Assembly (NCBI GenBank): GCA_017459985.1
Contig: JAFUBX010000012.1
Location: 1 to 44,743, forward strand
Source of the DNA: Parasporobacterium sp.
GTDB lineage: Bacteria > Bacillota > Clostridia > Lachnospirales > Lachnospiraceae
Direction of reading: 5' to 3'
DNA: 44,743 nucleotides
This document shows positions 8,626-44,743 of this stretch, one piece after another. The first letter of the stretch is position 1. Every line of letters begins with the position of its first letter. The position numbers and the translations under genes were made by a program. The notes below the pieces were generated by a model. That model made no database searches and was not told the DNA's origin. It saw nothing but the letters and a program-made list of their open reading frames with translations.

Positions 8626-9762
8626 ATGATGAAAAAACGAGGGATCTTAGCGATCAGTGTTCTGCTGATCTTTCTGATTTGCAATGCGGCCTTCGCTGCT
8701 GAAGCAAAGGCCGCAGCCGGTGCGCTGGAAACGGACGAGATGTTCACGGACAGGGACCTTATGCAGACAGCCGACCTTACGGAAGCCGTTTCTTATTCCG
8801 TAAACAGCGGAGAAGACATTCACATCACACAGGCCGGAATCTATGCTCTCCGCGGAAATGCTTCGGAAGTCACCGTTTATGTGGAAGCCGACGACGAGGA
8901 TAAAGTCCAGCTGGTGCTTGATGGCGTGTCGGTCACAAACAGTGAGTTTCCCTGTATCTATGTGACCGGGGCGGACAAGGTGTTCGTAACCACAAGTGCC
9001 GACAGCTCCCTATCGGTAACCGGCTCCTTTGTTTCCGATGGCGATACTCATACGGACGGGGTAATCTTTTCCCGTTCCGACCTGGTCCTCAACGGAACTG
9101 CGACACTGACGATCGACTCCTCAAAGAATGGGGTGGTCTGCAAAGATGACCTGAAGATTACGGGCGGCAGCTACTTCGTCAATGCGGCTTCCAAATGCTT
9201 CGAGGCCAATGATTCCATCCGGATCGCAGACGGAACCTTTGCCCTTCAGGCCGGGACCGACGGACTCCATGCCGAAAATGAAGAGGATGACACCCTGGGG
9301 TATCTGTATATCCGGGGCGGGAACTTCGTGATCAACGCCGACGATGACGGGCTCCACGCAACCTCCATTGTGCAGATCGACAGCGGCAGCTTTGAGATCT
9401 CCGCCGCAGAGGGGATCGAAGGCACCTGGATTCAGATCAACGACGGAACGATCCGCATTTCCAGCTGGGATGACGGGATCAACGGGGCACAGAAGAGCGA
9501 TTCTTTCCGGCCGACGGTGGAGATCAACGGCGGGGATATTACCGTGAGCATGACCTCCGGGGATACGGACGCCATTGATTGCAACGGCGATCTGATTATC
9601 AACGGAGGAACTATCGATCTCACCGGACCATCCGCCTTTGACTACGACGGAGCCGGACAGTATAACGGAGGAACCATCATCGTAAACGGGCAGCAGCAAA
9701 GTTCTCTGCCGAATCAGATGGGCATGGGCAAAGGCGGAAGCCGGGGAGGCCGCGGATTCTGA
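8626..9762 (+). CDS. Secreted carbohydrate-binding beta-helix protein (Cthe_2159-like)
   Basis: A 378-residue exported protein with signal peptide MKKRGILAISVLLIFLICNAAFA. The mature part matches the Cthe_2159 carbohydrate-binding family: an N-terminal strand region (YALRGNASEVTVYVEADDEDKVQLVLDGVSV) and then a right-handed parallel beta-helix of about 20-residue turns such as ITGGSYFVNAA, INGGDITVSMTSGDTDAI and INGGTIDLTG, with acidic DDG/DGL turns likely to bind calcium. The tail is Gly/Arg/Met-rich and there is no cell-wall sorting motif. The family prototype binds cellulose and pectin-like polymers. The start follows an AGGAG site. A strong terminator closes the unit. Confidence 0.85.
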   Translation: MMKKRGILAISVLLIFLICNAAFAAEAKAAAGALETDEMFTDRDLMQTADLTEAVSYSVNSGEDIHITQAGIYALRGNASEVTVYVEADDEDKVQLVLDGVSVTNSEFPCIYVTGADKVFVTTSADSSLSVTGSFVSDGDTHTDGVIFSRSDLVLNGTATLTIDSSKNGVVCKDDLKITGGSYFVNAASKCFEANDSIRIADGTFALQAGTDGLHAENEEDDTLGYLYIRGGNFVINADDDGLHATSIVQIDSGSFEISAAEGIEGTWIQINDGTIRISSWDDGINGAQKSDSFRPTVEINGGDITVSMTSGDTDAIDCNGDLIINGGTIDLTGPSAFDYDGAGQYNGGTIIVNGQQQSSLPNQMGMGKGGSRGGRGF

Positions 9763-9777
9763 TCTTTTCCATTGGAT

Positions 9778-9817
9778 GAAGAGCTGTTGCATTTTTGTTG
9801 CGGCAGCTCTTCTTTTT
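9778..9817 (+). terminator. Rho-independent terminator
   Basis: GAAGAGCTG and CAGCTCTTC form a 9-bp stem with a 17-base loop, followed by TTTTT. It lies 16 bp after the stop of the carbohydrate-binding protein. Confidence 0.9.
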
Positions 9818-9938: not shown

Positions 9939-10865
9939 ATGAAACGATATGGAAAAGGGCTGGCAATTGTGCTGGCATTGGGACTGATGCTGTCGGTCAC
10001 AGCATTTGCGGCACCGGCGGATGCCGATACGCTGGCAGGAACCTATACCGATGGGGAACACACGCTGATCATTGCACCGGATCATACTTTTATTATGGAA
10101 GAGACCGGCCAGAATATGGAAGGGGAAGAATTCCTCTTGACGGTGACGGGCACTGCGGCGGAGGATGGATCCTTCGAAATCACCGGATTGTATGATGGGG
10201 AGATCAATCTGGTGGAGGTCGCATCGCCGGAGCAGGTGGCCGCGGATCTGGCCAGGGTCATCGCCGCGTTTGAGGGCGGCAGGGCAGAAGATGGCAATCA
10301 GGAGGACAAGGACGGAAAGGCGGAGGAGGACAGACTCCCCGGCACCTATACCGATGGGGAACATACCCTGGTGATTGCGGAGGATCTGACCTTTACCATG
10401 GAAAAGACCGGCCAGAATATGGAGGGCGTGGAATTCGTGCTGACGGTAACCGGTCAGTTTGCGGAAGACGGGACCTTCGAAATCAACGGCCTGTATGATG
10501 GCGAGATTAATCTGATCGAAGTGGCTTCCGAGGAGCAGGTGGCAGCAGACGCCCAGACAGTCCGGGAGGCATTTGAAGGCGGAAAGGTCAAAGAAGATGA
10601 AGGGATCACTCCGGGTACCTATTCCGACGGAGAACATACCCTGGTGGTGGCAGAGGATATGACCTTTACCATGGAGAAAACCGGCCAGAACATGGAAGGG
10701 GAAGAATTTGTTCTGTTGGTCACAGGAACCGTGACAGCAGACGGCGCCGTGGAGATCACCGGATTGTATGACGGAGAGATCAATCTGATCGAAGTGGCCT
10801 CCGAAGAGCAGGTGGCAGCCGATCTGGCAACAGTGGAAGCAGCGTTAAAAGGCGGACGGAAGTAG
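9939..10865 (+). CDS. Secreted protein of three tandem ~90-residue repeats
   Basis: A 308-residue exported protein, signal peptide KRYGKGLAIVLALGLMLSVTAFA. The mature part is three near-identical units starting about residues 33, 132 and 225, each opening with GTYTDGEHTL, continuing TFTMEKTGQNMEGEEF, LTVTG and GLYDGEINLIEVASEEQVAAD. The units are linked by acidic or charged spacers. Each unit reads like a small all-beta domain followed by a helix. I do not recognise the family. The gene has an AGGAGGAAGG site and is followed after 18 bp by another exported protein, so the two are probably co-expressed. Repeat similarity at DNA level is high, pointing to recent duplication. Confidence 0.8.
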   Translation: MKRYGKGLAIVLALGLMLSVTAFAAPADADTLAGTYTDGEHTLIIAPDHTFIMEETGQNMEGEEFLLTVTGTAAEDGSFEITGLYDGEINLVEVASPEQVAADLARVIAAFEGGRAEDGNQEDKDGKAEEDRLPGTYTDGEHTLVIAEDLTFTMEKTGQNMEGVEFVLTVTGQFAEDGTFEINGLYDGEINLIEVASEEQVAADAQTVREAFEGGKVKEDEGITPGTYSDGEHTLVVAEDMTFTMEKTGQNMEGEEFVLLVTGTVTADGAVEITGLYDGEINLIEVASEEQVAADLATVEAALKGGRK

Positions 10866-35754: not shown

Positions 35755-36867
35755 ATGAAAAAACAGTATTTTGCTACTCCGGAAATGATAAAACATTATC
35801 ATAGAGAACTGGCGAAGACCCGTCAGGGGATTCCTGATGTTCCAAAAACCCTGGAAGCCATGCGGGATCAGGGGCTCTTATCCGAGAAGCCGCTGCCGAT
35901 CCCTGCCCTGGATGGACGCATGGACAAGCAGGAATTTATGCAGGCGTTCGACCGGATTCCCTTCCCGGCCAATCCGGTGATCGAAGATTTCCCGGTCGCC
36001 AGATCCCAGGATAATCGGGTAGTCTTTTCCAAGGGCATGGATGTCATCTGCATTCAACATATCCATAATTACGGTTATGTCGATCAGACGTTAGGTAATG
36101 TCTATGCTTTTACCTATGTTTATCAGGGCTCCTGCAGTTACATCTTCGATGGCACCGAAATCAGGCTGCAGCCGGGAAATATCTTTATCGCTTCGCCTGG
36201 ATTCAGTCATGAAGTCCATACAACGGCAGATACATTCGCAATCGAAACCATGGTGCGTGACTCTGCCTTTGAAATCCTCTTTCATGATTTCCTCACCATT
36301 GATTCCCCGCTTGCGCATTTTCTCCGAAAGCCAAAGCAGGATAGGAAAAATGGATACTATTGTGTTGTGCGTGCAGACCCTGAGGACGAAGAGATTCGGT
36401 TCTACCAACAGGCAATTGCCTGCGAATGCGTTACGGAAAATCTATATTCTAATTCCTGCGCCATCAGTATGATCCGCCTGTTTCTGGCCAGAGCCTTTTA
36501 CAAATACGAAGATACGCTTGAGCTGTATAAGCATGACTTCCATTTTGACAGACCGGATCAAGGGAGCATTCTTCGGTTCATTCAAATCAATTATCAGCAT
36601 ATTACATTGGAGGAAGTAGCTTCCTATTTTCATTATAACAAAACCTATCTGTCCCGCTATATCCATACCCATTTTCACCGTTCGTTTTCGGAGATTGTTA
36701 CGGATCTGAAAATCACACAAGCCAAATCCTATCTTCTGAAAACAGATAAAAAAATAACCGACATTGCACAGATGGTCGGTTATGAATCCCTGGATCATTT
36801 TTCCCGCAGTTTTAAAAAGCAAACCGGTCTCTCACCTGTTGCGTATCGGAAGAATCATATGCATTGA
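35755..36867 (+). CDS. AraC-family transcriptional regulator
   Basis: A 370-residue regulator. Residues 1-95 form a helical N-terminal part. Residues 105-190 are a cupin-like sensor (VYQGSCSYIFDGTEIRLQPGNIFIASPGFSHEV). Residues 270-366 hold the double helix-turn-helix (ITLEEVASYFHYNKTYLSRYIHT, then KKITDIAQMVGYESLDHFSRSFKKQTGLSP). Such proteins normally activate nearby catabolic genes when a small molecule binds the cupin domain. It is the only regulator inside the esterase cluster and is the best candidate for binding the shared promoter element at 39346, 42125 and 44024. The AGAGGAAGG site lies directly before the start. Confidence 0.92.
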   Translation: MKKQYFATPEMIKHYHRELAKTRQGIPDVPKTLEAMRDQGLLSEKPLPIPALDGRMDKQEFMQAFDRIPFPANPVIEDFPVARSQDNRVVFSKGMDVICIQHIHNYGYVDQTLGNVYAFTYVYQGSCSYIFDGTEIRLQPGNIFIASPGFSHEVHTTADTFAIETMVRDSAFEILFHDFLTIDSPLAHFLRKPKQDRKNGYYCVVRADPEDEEIRFYQQAIACECVTENLYSNSCAISMIRLFLARAFYKYEDTLELYKHDFHFDRPDQGSILRFIQINYQHITLEEVASYFHYNKTYLSRYIHTHFHRSFSEIVTDLKITQAKSYLLKTDKKITDIAQMVGYESLDHFSRSFKKQTGLSPVAYRKNHMH

Positions 36868-36966: not shown

Positions 36967-38175
36967 TTATTCGCCAGATCTTAAATTCTGCATAAACTCG
37001 TCTGCCTGGATGGGCCATTCTTTACAGCCTTCTGCTGCGGTGGAAGACTGGCCTACGCCAAATCCATGTTTTGCTCCGGGAACAATGTATAGCTGTGCCG
37101 GTACCCGGTCTTTTACGGAGTCATAGGTGATATACGCATTTTCTACCGGAACCATATCGTCAGCATCTCCATGAACGATATAGAATGCCGGGAGGTTGGT
37201 ATTTTCTTCGGTTACCGGATTGGATCCGGAACCATAGGCAATCAGAGCCACATCCAGATCGCCCGGGATTGCATCCAGTTCATCCGGAATATAGGAGCTG
37301 TCCCCTTCTTCTGCCGGAGTCAGAGCGCCATAAGCATAGTTGATTGCCTGCAGGATGGTACCGCCGCCGCCGGAGAAGCCAGCTGCCGCGATGCAATCCA
37401 TGCCGCCCCAGCCTTCCTGCTCTCCGTAGTAACGAACCAGACGGATGGCCCGCTGCATATCCATGCCGATGTCCTCTCTGGAGAACGGTGCCACACGACG
37501 CTGCAGCAGGAAGCAGTTGTATCCCAGATCATTGAAGCACGGGATGGCTGCATAGCCTTCTGCCGGATTACTTCTGGTGGAGAATCCACCGCCGGAAATC
37601 AGGATGATATTGCCCTTGGCTGCTGCCGGGTCATCCAGGAGACATTTGATCAGTACCGGTCCCTGACCATAGCTGTCGATCTCGCTGGCATCCAGTGCCT
37701 CTTCCGTCAGGCCTTCCTCTTCACCGTCTACCACAGGTCCTACATTGGCTGTAAACCATGCATAACCATTCGCATTATCTTCCGGGCTGGTGCCCCACAG
37801 GAACCAGGCACCGTCAGCAATAGACACTTCCTGTACCAGAACCGACTGGGCTTCCACTACCTTCTGGGCATCTTCGAAAGACTGGGTTCTCTTGAACTGT
37901 CTGCTGTAAACTTTGGAATATTCCTCGTAAGATTCGTCAGTGAATAATAGCTCAAACTCCTGAATAATACGGAAATTCCGGTTCATCAGTTTGATGTATT
38001 CTTCTTCGGAAGCATCGGCCGGGATCTCCCAGAGATAATCGTAAATATCCTGTACTACGCCGTCAATTACGATTTCCTCCGCAGCTGATTCCTCTGCCAT
38101 GACAGTAAATCCTGCAAACAGGGTCATGCACAGTGCTGCAGCCAGAACCACTGCAAATACCTTTTTCAAACTCAT
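36967..38175 (-). CDS. Secreted alpha/beta-hydrolase esterase (paralogue A)
   Basis: A 402-residue exported hydrolase, signal peptide SLKKVFAVVLAAALCMTLFA. An N-terminal helical region (35-130; VVQDIYDYLWEIPADASEEE, MNRNFRIIQEF) precedes the catalytic domain: oxyanion motif ISGGGF, nucleophile Ser268 in GFSGGGG, probable acid VHGDADDMVP and base KHGFGVG. The fold resembles BD-FAE and dienelactone-hydrolase-type esterases. It is similar along its length to the proteins at 39826 and 42170. ATG 38175 follows GGAGG; the earlier in-frame start is ignored. It lies 36 bp downstream of the CE1-like esterase and is probably co-transcribed with it. Confidence 0.87.
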   Translation of the reverse strand: MSLKKVFAVVLAAALCMTLFAGFTVMAEESAAEEIVIDGVVQDIYDYLWEIPADASEEEYIKLMNRNFRIIQEFELLFTDESYEEYSKVYSRQFKRTQSFEDAQKVVEAQSVLVQEVSIADGAWFLWGTSPEDNANGYAWFTANVGPVVDGEEEGLTEEALDASEIDSYGQGPVLIKCLLDDPAAAKGNIILISGGGFSTRSNPAEGYAAIPCFNDLGYNCFLLQRRVAPFSREDIGMDMQRAIRLVRYYGEQEGWGGMDCIAAAGFSGGGGTILQAINYAYGALTPAEEGDSSYIPDELDAIPGDLDVALIAYGSGSNPVTEENTNLPAFYIVHGDADDMVPVENAYITYDSVKDRVPAQLYIVPGAKHGFGVGQSSTAAEGCKEWPIQADEFMQNLRSGE

Positions 38176-38211
38176 TTTCGTTACCTCCATTTGCTGCAAT
38201 TATCAGTAGCT

Positions 38212-39264
38212 TTACTGAAAGATAAAGTTTCTTGCATTTGCCAGAATATACGGGAAGAACAGATCATTATGGGCATATTCGGAAATGGTAAAGTAGAAGT
38301 TGTTCACTTCCGGATCGGTACCGTAGGAGAAGGTATCGGTCTGCTCATAGAAATACTGCATCATCGGAACAAAATCTGCCATCATCTTCTGATCCGCGTT
38401 GCCGCCTACGTAGCAGCTCAGATAGAAATCCAGATCCGGATGAGCATCCAGGGTTTCTTTTACATAAGCAAACTTTTCTTCTGCCGTCTCAGCAGATCTG
38501 CCATCCAGCGGATTGATGCCGCCGCTGCAGGGCATCCAGTATTTGAAATATTCAAAGTCTTCATGCATCACATTCCAGGTACACATGGAGCCTCTGGAAT
38601 AACCTGCCCAGGCACGATGATCACGGGTTGCCTTGATACCCTCATCCGAGAAATCTTCACAGTATACATTAAACTGGCTCTCGATCTGCGGAATCAGATC
38701 TTCCACAATCTCTCTGTAATAAAAGCTGCGATCGCCGCCTTCCACGCCATCGGGAGTAACGAATCCATCTTCCGGAATGTCAAAGTAGAAGGTGGGGCAG
38801 ATGATGATGCATTTGTCCAGAAGGCCAACTTCATCATCAAACAGGTTGTCAAACAGATTGTTGCAGTTCGCGGATTTCATAATGTGATCCCAAAACTCAT
38901 TGGGAGAGCCGCCATTGCCATGCTGGAAATAGATGACATTGTATTTGGTGTCCTTATCATTCTCATCATAGCCGTAGGGAAGATAGATCGTCACATACTT
39001 GGTATAGGTCTCTCCATCTTCATAGGCATCCGTGGTGTAATGAGTACGGATGACCGTTCCCTTGTTTTCGTTCTCAATCAGATTGTAGCCGGTGGGCAGT
39101 ACATCCCATACGATCGGAACATCGAAAACATCCTCATTAACAATGGTGTCCCAGGTTTCAAAATCCGGTTCCGGCTCCGCTTCATCAGCGAAAGCAGTCA
39201 TGACGCCGCACAGCATCGTAAGAGTGATCACCAGGGAGACCACACTCCATAAAATTTTTTTCAT
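38212..39264 (-). CDS. Secreted feruloyl-esterase-like protein (CE1 / esterase D family)
   Basis: A 350-residue exported esterase, signal peptide KKILWSVVSLVITLTMLCG to TAFAD. The catalytic domain has YVTIYLPYGYD, IYFQHGNGGSPNEFW for the oxyanion region, nucleophile Ser224 in WAGYSRGSMCTW, and a C-terminal ISEYAHNDLFF likely to hold the catalytic His. The GYSRGS form of the nucleophile elbow is typical of clostridial feruloyl esterases in family CE1, which free ferulate or related acids from plant arabinoxylan. The gene has its own promoter with the cluster's shared element (39346-39380) and a GGAGG site. Confidence 0.88.
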   Translation of the reverse strand: MKKILWSVVSLVITLTMLCGVMTAFADEAEPEPDFETWDTIVNEDVFDVPIVWDVLPTGYNLIENENKGTVIRTHYTTDAYEDGETYTKYVTIYLPYGYDENDKDTKYNVIYFQHGNGGSPNEFWDHIMKSANCNNLFDNLFDDEVGLLDKCIIICPTFYFDIPEDGFVTPDGVEGGDRSFYYREIVEDLIPQIESQFNVYCEDFSDEGIKATRDHRAWAGYSRGSMCTWNVMHEDFEYFKYWMPCSGGINPLDGRSAETAEEKFAYVKETLDAHPDLDFYLSCYVGGNADQKMMADFVPMMQYFYEQTDTFSYGTDPEVNNFYFTISEYAHNDLFFPYILANARNFIFQ

Positions 39265-39345
39265 TCTTTCAACCTCCGTTTTTTTAGTGGCACTTTTGCC
39301 TTTTAATTTCCAATAGGGACTTTTATTTTATATACTTCCTTTTAT

Positions 39346-39380
39346 ATTATACACCATCCACCGCAACAAGACCGTGACAG
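39346..39380 (-). promoter_or_regulatory. Shared esterase-cluster promoter element, site A
   Basis: Read on the minus strand: CTGTCAC, 4 bp, TTGTTGCG, 10 bp, TATAAT. It lies about 82 bp before the CE1-like esterase start. There is no -35 consensus at the normal distance; TTGTTGCG is too close to the -10 to serve as one, so activator dependence is likely. Confidence 0.7.
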
Positions 39381-39450
39381 GGACCTCTACGATTTATTGT
39401 ATTTTTCATTTTAGTACTTTGTCAATCCCACCATACAGCAAATATTCCGG

Positions 39451-39812
39451 TTGTGTATCGTCGCCGATCCTGTTCCGCACCAAAATTGCGATTGTGTATC
39501 ATTGCCGATCCTGTTCCGCACCAAAATTGCGATTGTGTATCATCCACCAGAAGATCCCCAAGATAATATGCCATTTTCTTGTAGATAATTGCTGTTGTTT
39601 TCTGTTTTTTATACTATTATCGACATTTCAATAACTACTACTGATACACTATCGCAATTTTGGTGCGGCTCCCCCGATATGTAACCGAAAACCTGGTGCG
39701 AAAATGATACTCAATTGCATTTTGCTGCTTGCTGCGATACATAAACCGAAGATCTGGTGCAGTAATGAAACACTATCGAAAATCCGGGGCTGGCAGCGAC
39801 ACATGATAGGGA
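39451..39812. repeat. Direct and inverted repeat cluster
   Basis: Two 41-bp direct repeats starting TTGTGTATC (39451, 39492) contain CCGCACCAAAATTGCGA. A 27-bp arm (39516-39542) recurs inverted at 39642-39668 with one mismatch, framing an AT-rich 99-bp core. Further degenerate TGGTGCG / GATAC motifs continue to about 39812. The gap 39265-39825 contains no gene. Confidence 0.75.
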
Positions 39813-39825
39813 TAAACTTCCGTGC

Positions 39826-41022
39826 TTATTCCTCAATAAATGACGGGATCCCGGTCAGGTACCAGTAGCTGCGGTTGGTCTGGTAGTTCTTATGCGCCTG
39901 CATAAATTCATCTGCCTGATAGGGCCAGAGTTCCGTGCCTTCTACAGTTCCGGTAGCAGGCGGCAGGCCGACGCCGAATCCATGGGGTGCACCGTCCACA
40001 ATGTAAAGCTCTGCCGGAAGTCCGTATTCCAGGGCTTTTTCATACAAGGCTGTGGAATCTTCCGGGCCGTTGCCGTCTTCCGATCCGACACAGATATAAA
40101 AAGCTGGCAAATATGGATTTTCTTCCGGAGTAACCACTAACCCCTGCGCTGCACCATAAAGGACCATTTCCACGTCCACATCACTGGAGATCTCATCAAT
40201 CTCATCCGGGATATAATCAGAATCATAAACTGAGGCATTCCGCATGCCGTAGAGATAATTCACCGAACCTCCCAGAATGGTGCTGCCACCGCCGGACCAG
40301 CCAAGGGCCGCATACATATCCTGTCCGCCCAGATCATTTTCCATAATATAATACTTCGCTACCTTTACGAAACGGTTGTAGTCCATGTAGATATCCTCTT
40401 CGGAATACGGACCAACCCGGCGCTGCAGCAGGAAATAGTTATATCCAAGATCATTGAAGACGTCAGCTGCCGGATAACCTTCGGAGCCGTTGGACCACAC
40501 CAGCATTCCGCCGCCGGATACGGCAAAGATGTTGCCCTTGACCTGGCTTTGATCTTCCAACAGATACATAATTGCGAAAGGTTCAAAACCGTAGCCGAAC
40601 ATCTGGGATGTGTCAATGTCCTCCGGGGTAAACTCTTCCCCATCTACGCAGGACATGTCCGTACCGTCCCAGATGAAGAGGATCCGATCCGCCAGGGTAT
40701 CGTTTTCAATCAGCGCATTCCGGGCTTCAATGGCGGCAACAATCCCTTCCATGGTTGCCTCTTTTTTCATCTTTGTAACCGCCTTATTATAGGCCTTGTA
40801 GGAATCTTCTTCAAAAATCGGTTTCAGAGACTGGATATTTTTAAAGTTCCGGTTTTCCAATGCAATCGCCGTTTCCACATCCGCATCCGCAGGGATCTCT
40901 GTAATAAACCGGTCATAATCCCGGGGCTGCACTTCCGGTAACAACGTTTCTCCTGCAAACGCAGGAATCGCCATGCACAGTATTATGGTGATACAAATAA
41001 CTCCTATAATTCCTTTTTTCAT
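39826..41022 (-). CDS. Secreted alpha/beta-hydrolase esterase (paralogue B)
   Basis: A 398-residue exported hydrolase, signal peptide KKGIIGVICITIILCMAIPA. Same layout as paralogues A and C: N-terminal helical region with ITEIPADADVETAIALENRN, SGGGM oxyanion motif, nucleophile Ser243 in GWSGGGST, and base region APHGFGVG. Closest to paralogue C at 42170, sharing SQMFGYG, EGYPAAxVFNDLGYNxFLLQRRV and ADEFMQAH. A longer C-terminal tail (SYWYLTGIPSFIEE) is unique to it. It follows the 41037 gene by 14 bp and probably shares that gene's promoter. Confidence 0.87.
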   Translation of the reverse strand: MKKGIIGVICITIILCMAIPAFAGETLLPEVQPRDYDRFITEIPADADVETAIALENRNFKNIQSLKPIFEEDSYKAYNKAVTKMKKEATMEGIVAAIEARNALIENDTLADRILFIWDGTDMSCVDGEEFTPEDIDTSQMFGYGFEPFAIMYLLEDQSQVKGNIFAVSGGGMLVWSNGSEGYPAADVFNDLGYNYFLLQRRVGPYSEEDIYMDYNRFVKVAKYYIMENDLGGQDMYAALGWSGGGSTILGGSVNYLYGMRNASVYDSDYIPDEIDEISSDVDVEMVLYGAAQGLVVTPEENPYLPAFYICVGSEDGNGPEDSTALYEKALEYGLPAELYIVDGAPHGFGVGLPPATGTVEGTELWPYQADEFMQAHKNYQTNRSYWYLTGIPSFIEE

Positions 41023-41036
41023 ATGCGCTCCTTTTT

Positions 41037-42002
41037 TTACTGCTTTTCTTTATTCGACCGATCCCGATGCCCGAATTCCACATCCAGGAAGGTCTCCAGC
41101 TGATCAATCATCTGATCGGATCCGGCATAATTGTAGCCCATGGCAAAGGGGCCGTTGATGCCGCCATACATATGGAGCTCGCATTCGGTAACCGGGTTCA
41201 GGGCGAGATATGCTGTGACACAGAATCCAGATGCAAAATGTCCGGATGCTCCGGCGAAAAAGAATGCCGGCCAGGACTGGGGGTAGTTGGGATCCTCCTC
41301 TGACAGAATCAAAACCGGATCTGCGATGTCTACAGCAGCACCTGCAGTATCGTGGGTGGATCCTGCAGCATAAACACAGACAACTACGCCAACACTGGCA
41401 TCCATTTTATCGATATCATCACAGATATAGTCCGGATAGATACTGTCCGGGGTAATGTCACCGGCCAGCATAATGCTTTCCGCATAAACATGCATGGCTC
41501 CGGCAGAAAAGCCCATAGCTGCGATATGATCTATGGCTCCGATGCCCTTCTCTTCTGCATAGTACTTGAGATAGCGCACTGCCCGCTGCACATCCAATGT
41601 GGCATCCACGCTTTCATAGGGCTGTACACGGTAATCCAGAAGATATGCATTATAGCCAATGGAATTGAGCCATTCACAGCAAGGGATTCCTTCTCCGGGG
41701 TTGCTGCGCATCCGGTCGCCGCCTCCGGAGAGAACGATCACATTTCCTTTTGCTGCAGACTGATCCTCCAGCAGATATGCGGTCAAATGCGGCACAAATT
41801 CCGCATCGTCCGTTGCTCCCTGAAAATCATATTCAGAAGCTGCTTCTTCCACTGCCATGGCCTCGCCCCAGATGTTCCAGATTTCCTGTGCGTTTTCCTG
41901 TGCATCTACCACATCCTCCTGCGCAAATGCCATCACCGGCAGCATCGCCAGAAGCATCACCGCGCACATGACAATCGCCATCCACTTCATCACCTTTTTC
42001 AT
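41037..42002 (-). CDS. Secreted alpha/beta-hydrolase esterase (short form)
   Basis: A 321-residue exported hydrolase, signal peptide KKVMKWMAIVMCAVMLLAML to AFAQ. It lacks most of the N-terminal helical region of its paralogues. The catalytic domain has VLSGGGDRMRSNPGEG, nucleophile Ser166 in GFSAGAM, and a distinctive C-terminal part with ASGHFASGF and MYGGINGPFAMGY; the catalytic His may be in one of these. ATG 42002 follows AGGAGG; the longer frame to 42068 is rejected. It is the first gene of a two-gene unit with paralogue B, behind the shared element at 42125. Confidence 0.83.
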   Translation of the reverse strand: MKKVMKWMAIVMCAVMLLAMLPVMAFAQEDVVDAQENAQEIWNIWGEAMAVEEAASEYDFQGATDDAEFVPHLTAYLLEDQSAAKGNVIVLSGGGDRMRSNPGEGIPCCEWLNSIGYNAYLLDYRVQPYESVDATLDVQRAVRYLKYYAEEKGIGAIDHIAAMGFSAGAMHVYAESIMLAGDITPDSIYPDYICDDIDKMDASVGVVVCVYAAGSTHDTAGAAVDIADPVLILSEEDPNYPQSWPAFFFAGASGHFASGFCVTAYLALNPVTECELHMYGGINGPFAMGYNYAGSDQMIDQLETFLDVEFGHRDRSNKEKQ

Positions 42003-42124
42003 TTTATTCCTCCTAACACAAATTTCTATCACTTCAAGATCGTCCTGCAGCCATTCAGGAAACAGCAAAACAGAAACGATCCAGCATCATGCTGAAACAC
42101 CGGCATGACACTGAACCGTTCCTG

Positions 42125-42160
42125 ATTATACCTTATATAGCGCAACAATTCCGTGACAAA
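42125..42160 (-). promoter_or_regulatory. Shared esterase-cluster promoter element, site B
   Basis: Minus strand: TTTGTCAC, 4 bp, TTGTTGCG, 10 bp, TATAAT. It drives the 42002 gene with a leader of roughly 115 bases and begins right after the stop of the upstream esterase gene. Spacing is identical to sites A and C. Confidence 0.7.
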
Positions 42161-42169
42161 TCAGATCCA

Positions 42170-43318
42170 TTAGTACCGGTCTGTCTGATAGCCCAGATGT
42201 GCCTGCATGAATTCATCGGCATGCATGGGCCATTCTTCTGTGCCCGGAGCCTGGCCGGTGGCTGGGGAAAGGCCTACGCCAAATCCATGTTCCGCGCCTT
42301 CGATCATGTTCAGTTCTGCCGGAATGTCCAAAGCAGTCACAGCATCGTAAAGATCATAGGATCCCTGGGGATCTACCGTCGTATCTTCCGTACCCTGGCA
42401 GATATAGAAGCAGGGCAGGTTTTCATTACCGCTCTCCGGATCCAGGCTGCCGCCGTAGATGGTCATGGCCACATCCAGATCTGCATTAATAGCGTCGATT
42501 TCATCTGGTACATAATCGGAATCGTAATCTGCAGGTGTCACATTGCCATAGAATTTGTTGATACTGCCCATCAGGGTGAAACTGCCGCCGGACCAGCCTA
42601 CACCGGCAAACATGTCCTGTCCGCCATAGCCTTCCTCTTTGGCATGATATTTCACCAGACGGATCAGCCGCTGATAATCCATGAAGATGTCTTCGTTGGA
42701 ATAGGGCTCTACTCTTCTCTGAAGCAGGAAGAAATTATATCCCAGATCATTAAACACCTGAGCTGCCGGGTAACCTTCCGCATTATTAGCCCAGACCTTC
42801 ATGGCACCGCCGGAGCAGGCAATGATGTTACCCTTGCAAGCGGACTGATCTTCCACCAGATATTTGATGGCAATCGGCTCATAGCCGTAACCGAACATCT
42901 GGCTGGCATCCAGTTCTTCTTCCGTATATTCCTCGCCGTCCACGCAGGGCATCATATCCTCATTCCAGATAAACCAAATCCGATCTTCTACGGATTCCAC
43001 TTCCACCAGGGCTTCCCGGGCTTCTACTGCCGCCTGTACCGCTTCCATAGTTTCTTCTTTTTTCATGGTAGAAACAGCTTTGTTGTAAGCTTTCAAAGAA
43101 TCCGCATCAAACAGCATCTGCATTGCGGTGATATGTTTGTTATTCCGTTTTTCAATCTTGATCGCAGTCTCCACATCCGCATCCGCCGGAATCTCCTGGA
43201 TCAGCCGGGCATAGTCTTTTTCTTCGGTTTCCGGTTCTGCTGCCACCGCGGTCAATGACCCCGCCAGCATTCCCAGACACATGATAACCGTAAGCATTCC
43301 ACATAAAAATCGTTTCAT
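42170..43318 (-). CDS. Secreted alpha/beta-hydrolase esterase (paralogue C)
   Basis: A 382-residue exported hydrolase, signal peptide KRFLCGMLTVIMCLGMLAGS to AVAAE. N-terminal helical region with IQEIPADADVETAIKIEKRN; catalytic domain with CSGGAM, nucleophile Ser243 in GWSGGSFT, and EHGFGVG for the base. It differs from paralogue B mainly in the tail and in having SGGA rather than SGGG at the oxyanion loop. Its upstream gap does not contain the shared promoter element; instead there is a TATAAT-type box and a hairpin at 43354, so it may be controlled separately. Confidence 0.87.
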   Translation of the reverse strand: MKRFLCGMLTVIMCLGMLAGSLTAVAAEPETEEKDYARLIQEIPADADVETAIKIEKRNNKHITAMQMLFDADSLKAYNKAVSTMKKEETMEAVQAAVEAREALVEVESVEDRIWFIWNEDMMPCVDGEEYTEEELDASQMFGYGYEPIAIKYLVEDQSACKGNIIACSGGAMKVWANNAEGYPAAQVFNDLGYNFFLLQRRVEPYSNEDIFMDYQRLIRLVKYHAKEEGYGGQDMFAGVGWSGGSFTLMGSINKFYGNVTPADYDSDYVPDEIDAINADLDVAMTIYGGSLDPESGNENLPCFYICQGTEDTTVDPQGSYDLYDAVTALDIPAELNMIEGAEHGFGVGLSPATGQAPGTEEWPMHADEFMQAHLGYQTDRY

Positions 43319-43353
43319 TGTCTCTTCTCCTGTAATAATGATTTGTAAGTTAT

Positions 43354-43383
43354 TGAGTCAGCAGGTATATGCCTGCTGACTCA
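43354..43383. promoter_or_regulatory. 12-bp-stem hairpin in the leader of paralogue C
   Basis: TGAGTCAGCAGG and CCTGCTGACTCA pair perfectly around TATATG, 36 bp before the start codon at 43318. No T-run follows on the minus strand, so it is more likely an operator or leader structure than a terminator. Confidence 0.6.
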
Positions 43384-43487
43384 GTGATATTAAACTACTA
43401 CATATTATAATAAAGGAAAAGTTAATATAGGGAAATGACCGGATTTGACAGGAAGCCGGACTATATATGATGTTCTTGAAAGGATTA

Positions 43488-43950
43488 TTATTCCCGCACA
43501 ATCGGTTCCCAAGGGTCTTCGATGGAGATGGCATCTTCATACATCATCTGTGCATCATCATCTGCAAAACCAATGGCATTATAGGTTACAGTTACCACGC
43601 CGTCTTCCACGGTGCCTTCAATCACGTTCTGGCTGTGCATCACGGTATACTCGGCATGGAATTCGGTTTCCTCCTCATTCATGGCGAAATACACATCACT
43701 GTTGGTGAAGGTATAAAAGCCATAGAAAGTTTTCGCCTTGGTAAATTTTTCAGGGATCTCAGGATCATTTACCTCTTCATTTTCCGGTGCAATCTGACCA
43801 CGATTCGCAGAGATATTTGGAAATATCTTGTACTACACCGTAAATTGTTTCAAGATCATCTGCGGCTGTTTCCTGCGCAAAAGTCCTGCTGCCAGTAAAC
43901 ATCGACAGTCCCAGTAGCATAGCTATCAGTATCACTATCATACGCCTCAT
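43488..43950 (-). pseudogene. Remnant of a secreted esterase (internal deletion and frameshift)
   Basis: The start (ATG 43950, GGAGGG site) encodes a signal peptide, RRMIVILIAMLLGLSMFTGS, then TIYGVVQDISKYL, which resembles the beginning of paralogue A (VVQDIYDYL). The frame then stops near 43777. The other frame carries on as QIAPENEEVNDPEIPEKFT and a complete C-terminal domain (FYGFYTF, IEGTVEDGVVTVTYN, GFADDDAQMMYEDA) to the stop at 43488, homologous to the tail of the 33586 esterase. The whole catalytic domain is missing between the two parts. It still has a full promoter element upstream (44024). Confidence 0.75.
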
Positions 43951-44023
43951 GATTATCCCTCCATTCTCATTCTGCTTTCCCGCGAAGTAATGCGGGCAAT
44001 ATCCCACTTTCTGTTCATCGGCT

Positions 44024-44058
44024 ACTATAGCAAATAAACCGCAACAACTCTGTAACAA
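44024..44058 (-). promoter_or_regulatory. Shared esterase-cluster promoter element, site C
   Basis: Minus strand: TTGTTAC, 4 bp, TTGTTGCG, 10 bp, TATAGT. It precedes the esterase remnant by about 75 bp. One base in the first block and one in the -10 differ from sites A and B; spacing is the same. Confidence 0.65.
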
Positions 44059-44161
44059 TCTGAAAAGTCACAAAATAGCATTACCGTTTTGCTTAAAATA
44101 ATATATACTGACAATAGCAGGATACCAATTATCGGAATAACAGAATTGGAGGAAATGACGT

Positions 44162-44743
44162 ATGAACATGAAAAGACGCAAACTATGGGGACTGGGGCTG
44201 TCCCTGCTTATGGCAGTTATGATGGCCGCCATGCCTCTGACTTCCTTCGCGGAGATCAAATCCGGTGAAGAGGAGGTCGAGATTCTCCCGCCCAGCGGCA
44301 ATCTGGATTTTAGCGATGCGATCCAGAAGGAGCTGACCGTTCTGGTGGACGGGGAGCAGATGAAGGTGACGGAATATGAGGATTTTTACATTCCGGAGCC
44401 TACCCTGGAGGATCAGCGGATCAGTATTTATGTGCCGGAGGGAGCCACCGCGGATTCCCCCATCATCCTGTGTGTGAATAATGCAGGCTGGATGATGAAC
44501 AGTTATAAAAGCCGCACCAAAGTGGCCAAGGATGATCCCGATAACCTGGCAGAATATTCCAGCAGCGATGACAGTGATAAAGTCGGCATGATTCTGTCCA
44601 AAAACTATGTGCTGGTAAGCTATGGCTGCCGCGCCAGAAACGATGATCCGGTGAATGGCATTTATAACGGTCATTCTCCGGCCACGGTGGCGGACACCAA
44701 GGCCGTGATCCGCTATCTGCGCTATAATCAGGAAGCGCTGCCG
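44162..44743 (+). CDS. Secreted alpha/beta hydrolase, tannase-like (partial, runs off the window)
   Basis: The first 194 codons are open to the end of the window. Signal peptide KRRKLWGLGLSLLMAVMMAA to TSFAE. The mature part has LVDGEQMKVTEYEDFYIPEP, RISIYVPEGATADSPIILCVNNAGWM, KNYVLVSYGCRARND and HSPATVADTKAVIRYLRYN. The last pattern, a G(x)RAR turn followed by an acidic ATVADxKAVIRYLRYN helix, resembles subtype-B tannases and related aryl-ester hydrolases. The nucleophile region lies beyond the window. ATG 44162 follows GGAGG. It is divergent from the esterase remnant and extends the esterase cluster to the right. Confidence 0.8.
   Translation, partial: MNMKRRKLWGLGLSLLMAVMMAAMPLTSFAEIKSGEEEVEILPPSGNLDFSDAIQKELTVLVDGEQMKVTEYEDFYIPEPTLEDQRISIYVPEGATADSPIILCVNNAGWMMNSYKSRTKVAKDDPDNLAEYSSSDDSDKVGMILSKNYVLVSYGCRARNDDPVNGIYNGHSPATVADTKAVIRYLRYNQEALP

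Follow-up and report, generated by a model that had tools for sequence, protein, structure and literature searches.

A heptamer direct repeat shared by esterase-like promoters in a Parasporobacterium genome is a likely operator for a two-component regulator whose gene is on a different contig

At promoters controlled by AraC/XylS-family proteins the activator site overlaps the -35 position, and AraC proteins can contact two boxes that are one turn apart. The promoters activated by SARP proteins (AfsR at afsS; PimR and SanG) are described as having direct repeats with an 11-bp period, typically heptamers with 4-bp spacers, that overlap a poor -35 and lie near the -10 (PMC10936776, PMC3367932). 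Work on the OmpR/PhoB family, which includes WalR/VicR, describes a receiver joined to an OmpR-type winged helix, direct repeats with the same 11-bp period, half-sites starting with TGT, and a box of the form TGTWAH-N5-TGTWAH (PMC4168254, PMC3264566).

On its minus strand, the window (the whole stretch of 44,743 nucleotides that we analyzed) matches TGTYAC-N4-TTGTTGCG-N10-TATART exactly three times, at 39346-39379, 42125-42158, and 44024-44057. The expectation for this pattern in the window is 0.02 with up to 3 mismatches allowed, and three copies were reached in 0 of 100 shuffles. This bears out the initial annotation, which had described three promoters sharing one bipartite element with identical spacing. 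The two blocks are better read as two copies of one heptamer, forming a direct repeat TGTYRCR-N4-TGTTGCR with an 11-bp period (7-bp half-site plus 4-bp spacer), after which come N10 and the -10. In the first putative operator-promoter, the heptamers are at 39373-39379 (TGTCACG) and 39362-39368 (TGTTGCG), with the -10 TATAAT at 39346-39351. The second has heptamers at 42152-42158 and 42141-42147 and TATAAT at 42125-42130, and the third has heptamers at 44051-44057 and 44040-44046 and TATAGT at 44024-44029. The start codons are at 39264, 42002, and 43950, as that annotation had placed them; the distances from the -10 to these codons are 81, 122, and 73 bp, respectively. A fourth repeat core is found on the plus strand at 9785-9802 (TGTTGCA-TTTT-TGTTGCG), between an open reading frame ending at 9762 and one starting at 9939; it has no -10 (TANNNT) at the N10 spacing.

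When the core pattern was widened to cover the variants already seen, the 3.53-Mb draft genome yielded exactly 13 exact matches, all of them on four contigs (four each on C61, C96, and C126 and one on C111). TANNNT is present at the fixed N10 spacing in 12 of these, the exception being the core at 9785 in the window. The seven additional sites found by allowing one mismatch do not rise above the nine matches of a reversed-pattern control. All 13 sites agree at 10 of their 14 heptamer positions, whereas spacer bases 1 and 3 contain little information. Every second half-site is TGTTGC, and so the element does not fit the WalR/VicR box, in which both half-sites are TGTWAH; we therefore reject that assignment. 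The clusters on C61 and C126 are near duplicates (84 to 94% identity in the five best BLAST pieces), and the site at 44024 is identical to the one at C126:160391, so the 13 sites do not represent 13 independent events. Two pairs of paralogous promoters still share the repeat beyond the point where their BLAST match ends. The best hexamers at spacers of 15 to 19 never match TTGACA at more than 3 of 6 positions at any of the 13 sites, which rules out a plain sigma-70 -35 and agrees with the earlier statement that the -35 is not consensus. Promoters that have no -35 and share a putative operator overlying that region are what would be expected of activator-dependent promoters, and that reading is supported at the level of sequence.

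Site 1 precedes a putative esterase gene (38212-39264, minus strand) with a PF00756 match just under the cut-off and, by eye, a signal-peptide-like start; judging from the spacing, gene 36967-38199, which follows, probably belongs to the same transcription unit. The target of site 2 is an alpha/beta hydrolase-like gene (41037-42002, minus strand) with a weak BD-FAE match, and gene 39826-41022 follows it after 14 bp. Site 3 is located 5' of a broken gene, the minus-strand esterase-type remnant at 43777-43950, which keeps a signal-peptide-like start but whose frame ends after 57 codons, with ~1 kb of its relative on C126 absent. Next in order is an alpha/beta hydrolase-like gene on the same strand (42170-43318; open frame of 382 codons) with a Peptidase_S9 match above the cut-off. 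Throughout the genome, the element heads esterase-like genes, one GH106 gene, one GH39 gene, and an operon that encodes a histidine kinase and a response regulator. Of the earlier proposal of a local esterase regulon, what stands is a small, esterase-rich set of genes that the element precedes; the set is not local, with 9 of the 13 sites on other contigs, and it extends to the GH106 gene, the GH39 gene, and the two-component operon. The element thus marks a small group of enzymes that are probably secreted and may break down plant material. A shared giant-gene regulon was rejected as the general target: nine large proteins follow sites in other genomes, and none has a Pfam match above the cut-off (two have weak matches).

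Based on the distribution of the sites and on comparisons with other genomes, we consider the element a likely operator for a response regulator composed of a receiver and an OmpR/SARP-like winged helix (wHTH). The foremost candidate is the product of C96:7652-8440, which is paired with a LytS-type histidine kinase (C96:8418-10382). Of the four sites on C96, one stands at the head of the kinase/regulator operon, a second is oriented divergently from it, and a third is 15 bp beyond the stop codon of the regulator gene. The N terminus of the regulator is a receiver domain (PF00072, E = 2.3e-16), and its C terminus matches PF00486 (Trans_reg_C) at E = 0.0019 and 18.7 bits, which is under the Pfam cut-off of 26.2. 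A profile of the wHTH family gives weak matches to the AfsR, EmbR, and 1p2f chains, and the best match to the sequence of a solved structure is AfsR (E = 2.6e-4). The tail after the wHTH is short, and Pfam gives no BTA domain match in this protein at E values up to 5.

A search with the C96 regulator protein alone identified 12 loci, nine of them full-length (L088 to L096). At eight of these nine, a perfect TGTTGCG (seven loci) or TGTAACG (one locus) repeat with a -10 is found 47 to 140 bp past the regulator stop codon; L096 has no such perfect repeat, and L094 and L095 are 99% identical. The C96 regulator is only 32 to 34% identical to these eight, which show the cleanest repeat linkage. In a wider comparison of loci that differ in length, a perfect repeat with a -10 is present at 15 of 31 receiver-wHTH loci, among which the C96 locus was included because of its motif matches, versus 0 of 30 loci of other response regulators and 0 of 18 loci with an apparently receiver-less wHTH. 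The other 16 receiver-wHTH loci have no perfect repeat. The 31 comprise 21 full-length aligned regulators and 10 loci classed by open-frame length (269 to 307 amino acids) and helix, and the 18 were classed by frame length and helix alone (L185 shows only a 174-amino-acid frame). Duplicates (L068, L082, L116, and L163 to L177) and partial or broken loci (L085, L099, L110, L122, L132, and L137) were excluded; the latter have no repeat of at least 6/7 with a -10. When the family loci are trimmed to 1.5 kb on each side, the count is still 15 of 31. Across 48 loci, 15 perfect repeats occur at a spacer of 4 bp and none at each of the eleven other spacers from 0 to 11. The five sampled family genomes that have exact element matches all carry the wHTH family, versus 137 of 397 overall, as counted with a profile seeded with regulators from motif genomes.

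The sequence of the half-site is associated with that of the recognition helix. Loci whose regulators have a K[SG][YH]- or RSY-type helix have TGTTGCG/TGTAACG-type repeats in 10 of 11 cases, and loci with a KQ-type helix have TGTTGGA repeats in 5 of 8. The helix of the C96 regulator, AAKSHIR, is of the K[SG][YH] kind. Genomes G015, G173, and G342 have nine exact motif matches, yet their only regulators of the family are of the KQ or NQ type, so the TGTTGCG sites there may have a different reader, or the helix rule is drawn too narrowly. In G015, a TGTTGCA/TGTTGCG repeat lies ~6 kb from a KQ-type regulator, and in G342 a TGTTACA/TGTTATA repeat lies 2 kb from an NQ-type regulator. We tentatively propose, as a generalization that could well prove wrong, that a widespread Clostridia family of kinase-linked receiver/SARP-like wHTH regulators uses one grammar (TGT-heptamer, 4 bp, TGT-heptamer, 10 bp, -10) in which a few helix residues set the last heptamer bases: TGTTGCG for K[SG][YH], TGTTGGA for KQ, and perhaps TGTTGTM for NQ. 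In the open-access literature, covered as titles and the beginnings of abstracts, we found no description of this regulator family with this element and no operator described for the family.

We infer that the kinase would sense an outside cue, perhaps plant-wall sugars, and then phosphorylate the C96 regulator. Two adjacent regulator protomers, spaced by one helical turn, would each occupy a heptamer over the missing -35, and the bound regulator would recruit RNA polymerase to the -10. This would switch on the esterase-like genes, the GH106 and GH39 genes, and the two-component operon itself.

It is unlikely that another response regulator of this genome reads the element, alone or together with that of C96. 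The genome does encode further members of the family, at C93:33438-34235 and on C12, and there is a LytTR/GHKL pair inside the C126 cluster (LytTR gene at C126:145106). However, the helix of the C93 protein is of another kind (EKARIR), and its locus lacks such a repeat over the 15.5 kb examined; C12 has a different repeat (TGTGGCA-N4-TGTGGTA) upstream of a kinase-like open reading frame. Since the repeat is found at none of the 30 loci of other response regulators, we reject the LytTR regulator as the reader.

Less probable still is regulation by an AraC protein. The initial annotation had named the AraC-family gene at 35755-36867 (plus strand), which is within the cluster, and either this protein or a paralog might bind TGTYRC and TGTTGC as A and B boxes, separated by one helical turn, and so activate a local esterase regulon. 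The paralog C111:4567-5739 is ~1 kb from one of the sites, so a secondary AraC role is possible. In contrast, the congener genome G004 has three orthologs of the 35755 gene (47 to 53% identity), two of them ~4 and ~11 kb from esterase homologs, and comparison of these clusters shows AraC orthologs and related esterases without the element. A scan for repeat cores that covered three regions of G004, leaving aside its third AraC region, and one of G010 gave no match at up to 1 mismatch, and the G004 genome has no match to the pattern with the -10 at up to 1 mismatch. Conversely, an AraC search at 1e-20 gave no match in four other sampled family genomes that hold exact copies of the element. A perfect repeat is present at only 1 of 12 loci of AraC relatives, and that one is the C111 site of this genome itself. 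We therefore judge that the AraC protein is not the reader of the element.

That the blocks were merely inherited by recent duplication of esterase promoters, with no regulatory meaning, is the most improbable reading: near-duplicate clusters and an identical pair of sites are what it would predict, but sites also precede the unrelated GH106, GH39, and kinase genes, the same architecture stands beside regulators in other genera, and most heptamer positions are invariant, whereas two of the spacer bases are nearly uninformative.

Assignment of the element to the C96 system would mean that the likely regulator is a two-component system from a different contig rather than a plausible neighboring gene, and it makes a 13-site regulon of probably secreted enzymes directly testable. 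If the wider rule holds, a response-regulator family is linked to its DNA sites, so that for many Clostridia the genome sequence could reveal target genes; if the helix/half-site grammar is true, operators and regulons of the family would be predictable from sequence.

Compared with AraC/XylS promoters, the element has the same placement over the -35, but the element and orthologs of the AraC gene do not occur together in the genomes examined. As in the OmpR/PhoB family, the half-sites that the C96 regulator would bind start with TGT and are one helical turn apart, with an 11-bp period at the 13 genome sites and perfect repeats in the regulator family only at a spacer of 4; the differences are that the partner kinase is of the LytS type and that the match to Trans_reg_C is weak. 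The element resembles SARP operators of the AfsR type (PMC3367932) in its heptamer direct repeats, its 4-bp spacer, and its location over the -35 position. It differs in that 10 bp, not 8 bp, separate the second heptamer from the -10, in that the wHTH has no BTA match, is fused to a receiver domain, and is paired with a histidine kinase, and in that its host is a member of the Lachnospiraceae and not Streptomyces.

The three esterase-cluster promoters of the window do share the rigidly spaced bipartite element proposed in the initial annotation, with 3 exact copies versus 0.02 expected. At these sites, TGTYAC and TGTTGCG read as a single heptamer repeated with an 11-bp period, and the -10 hexamer sits 10 bp past the second copy. 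In the draft genome (3,528,620 bases, 131 contigs, 94.75% complete), the original pattern with up to 3 mismatches has 11 matches versus 1 for the reversed pattern. The repeat core (both heptamers and the spacer), widened by a pattern built to cover variants already known, has exactly 13 exact matches: 9785, 39362, 42141, and 44040 in the window; 3636, 7619, 10409, and 10432 on contig C96; 6738 on C111; and 141910, 153560, 156191, and 160407 on C126. Allowing one mismatch adds 7 matches, which is not above the 9 of the reversed-pattern control. Across the 13 sites, the first heptamer is invariant at positions 1 to 3 and 6, and the second at positions 1 to 6. In the 4-bp spacer, 12 of the 13 sites have T as the last base, and the second base is A or T, with the other two variable; the two bases directly 3' of the second heptamer are skewed in composition. 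TANNNT occurs at the fixed spacing in all sites except 9785 (12/13). A sigma-70 -35 was looked for across the 13 sites and is absent, in agreement with the non-consensus -35 described earlier.

The proposal of a local esterase regulon holds only in part. Most targets are esterase-like or alpha/beta-hydrolase-like: 38212, 41037, and 42170 (after a broken gene) in the window; 140610, 152430, and 155143 on C126; and 5965 and 10531 on C96, with most Pfam esterase matches below the cut-off. However, sites also occur on C96, C111, and C126, and their targets include a GH106 gene (C96 556 to 3594), a GH39 gene (C111 6740 to 10765), and a kinase/regulator operon on C96. The gene after site 9785 has a SpaA-like match. 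Judged by eye from signal-peptide-like starts, the target enzymes are probably secreted.

Some sites share ancestry, since by BLAST much of the window cluster recurs in diverged form at C126:141-161 kb (window 37231 to 44743 versus C126:141200-161110, about 84 to 94% identity in the best BLAST pieces). For the pair 39346/153544 the match stops 19 bp short of the start codon, and for 42125/156175 it ends within the gene; the repeat is nonetheless kept in both. The sites of the third pair, 44024/160391, are identical and lie within an aligned stretch. The ends of the two contigs fall at the same homologous point, which suggests that a duplication broke the assembly. Two of the sites head broken genes: the esterase-type gene at 43777 to 43950 (window) is cut down to 57 codons and lacks ~1 kb that is present in its C126 counterpart, which itself appears as two ORFs in different frames. 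The C126 cluster additionally contains a divergent GHKL kinase and LytTR response regulator (C126:143612-145819); by eye, kinase- or regulator-like genes are also present in the esterase regions of the congener G004 and of genome G010.

We judge that the AraC-family protein at 35755, previously suggested as the reader of the element, is unlikely to be its reader. It has paralogs in its own genome and three orthologs in G004 (47 to 53% identity), and in two G004 regions esterase homologs lie at distances of ~4 and ~11 kb from the AraC gene. The core, with at most 1 mismatch, is absent from three regions of G004, covering two of its three AraC loci, and from one region of G010, so comparison with related clusters does not support an AraC-linked element. 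The pattern with its -10 has no match anywhere in G004, and G015, G064, G173, and G342 have no AraC match at 1e-20.

The better candidate is the C96 response regulator (C96:7652-8440; 262 aa, carrying a receiver domain and matching Trans_reg_C weakly), encoded with a LytS-type kinase (PF06580; C96:8418-10382). An esterase-like gene is divergent from this operon, and the interval between them holds two sites placed back to back with 5 bp separating them; a third site is located 15 bp beyond the stop codon of the regulator. A search with the regulator protein alone found 12 loci, 9 of them full-length (L088 to L096). Eight of the 9, all except L096, have a perfect repeat and -10 located 47 to 140 bp after the regulator stop, with the heptamer TGTTGCG in 7 and TGTAACG in 1; L094 and L095 share 99% identity, which leaves no more than 7 independent cases. 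Loci L089 to L096 recurrently contain the kinase, the receiver-winged-helix regulator, the operator (7/8, L096 being the exception), a second protein whose N terminus reads MTILLVDSD or much the same (in L092, the single case tested, its receiver match is at the cut-off), a 194- to 265-aa protein, and, in 6/8, a 1,323- to 1,614-aa protein. Contig C109 carries a fragment (L110, 2141 to 2437) with 80% identity to residues 202 to 257 of the C96 regulator, apparently a decayed duplicate. This genome encodes another regulator of the family on C12, and just 5' of the ORF before it (L158 7737 to 7770, near 73.7 kb on C12) is a repeat of different sequence, TGTGGCA-N4-TGTGGTA, whose -10 is at 9 bp.

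Among 48 winged-helix loci, perfect TGT-repeats with TANNNT number 15 when the spacer is 4 bp, and each of the eleven other lengths tested (0 to 3 and 5 to 11) gives 0; without the TGT requirement, the values are 17 versus 0 to 4. Perfect repeats with a -10 occur in 15/31 receiver-winged-helix loci (C96, which is among the 15, was picked for its motif matches), 0/30 loci of other response regulators, 0/18 receiver-less winged-helix loci, and 1/12 AraC-relative loci, the one being the genome's own C111 site. A similar winged helix, with helices like TLARYRKVALRL, is found in open frames of 530 to 1,004 aa (174 in L185) in L097, L098, L120, and 15 loci in L178 to L200, and no repeat of this kind was found near these.

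Half-site sequence varies with recognition-helix type. Helices of the K[SG][YH] or RSY type accompany TGTTGCG- or TGTAACG-type repeats in 10/11 loci (one of the 10, L179, has one mismatch between its half-sites), KQ-type helices accompany TGTTGGA in 5/8 and no repeat in 3/8, and NQ-type helices accompany TGTTGTC or TGTTGTA/TGTTGGA in 2/4. Helix EQNRIR (L184) is accompanied by TGTAATG/TGTAACG, and the G001, G015, and G173 regulators lie alongside TGTTGGA-N4-TGTTGGA. Fisher's exact test (10 versus 5) gives 3.3e-4, uncorrected for relatedness and with classes drawn after the data were seen.

Exact matches to the core with its -10 occur in 5/397 sampled family genomes (7 in this genome, 4 in G015, 3 in G342, 2 in G173, and 1 in G064), versus 1 in total for the reversed control. 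None of 13 congeners, several of them incomplete genomes, has an exact match, and one has a one-mismatch match. The winged-helix family, by a profile partly built from the motif genomes themselves, is present in 137/397 genomes (taken to be the same sample), including all 5 with the motif. Counting against a C96-type reader, G015, G173, and G342 have TGTTGCG sites preceding large genes and no family regulator of matching helix type was found in them, and weaker TGTTGCG- or TGTTACA-like repeats lie 2 to 6 kb from their KQ- or NQ-type regulators. In these genomes (L101 to L109), the operator precedes genes of 546 to 1,922 aa, several per genome, and none of the 9 tested has a Pfam match above cut-off.

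If the C96 regulator reads the element, activation would be of the SARP/OmpR kind, here driven by a two-component kinase; a carbohydrate signal for that kinase is a guess from the targets. AfsR is the best solved-structure match of the winged-helix profile. As far as the cited descriptions go, AfsR-type SARPs bind as a side-by-side dimer to repeats of 11-bp period that end 8 bp from the -10, with the upstream repeat overlapping the -35 (PMC10936776), and SARP sites are heptamers with 4-bp spacers (PMC3367932). The geometry of our element resembles that of these promoters, and also that of OmpR-family sites such as VicR's, as these are described in PMC4168254.
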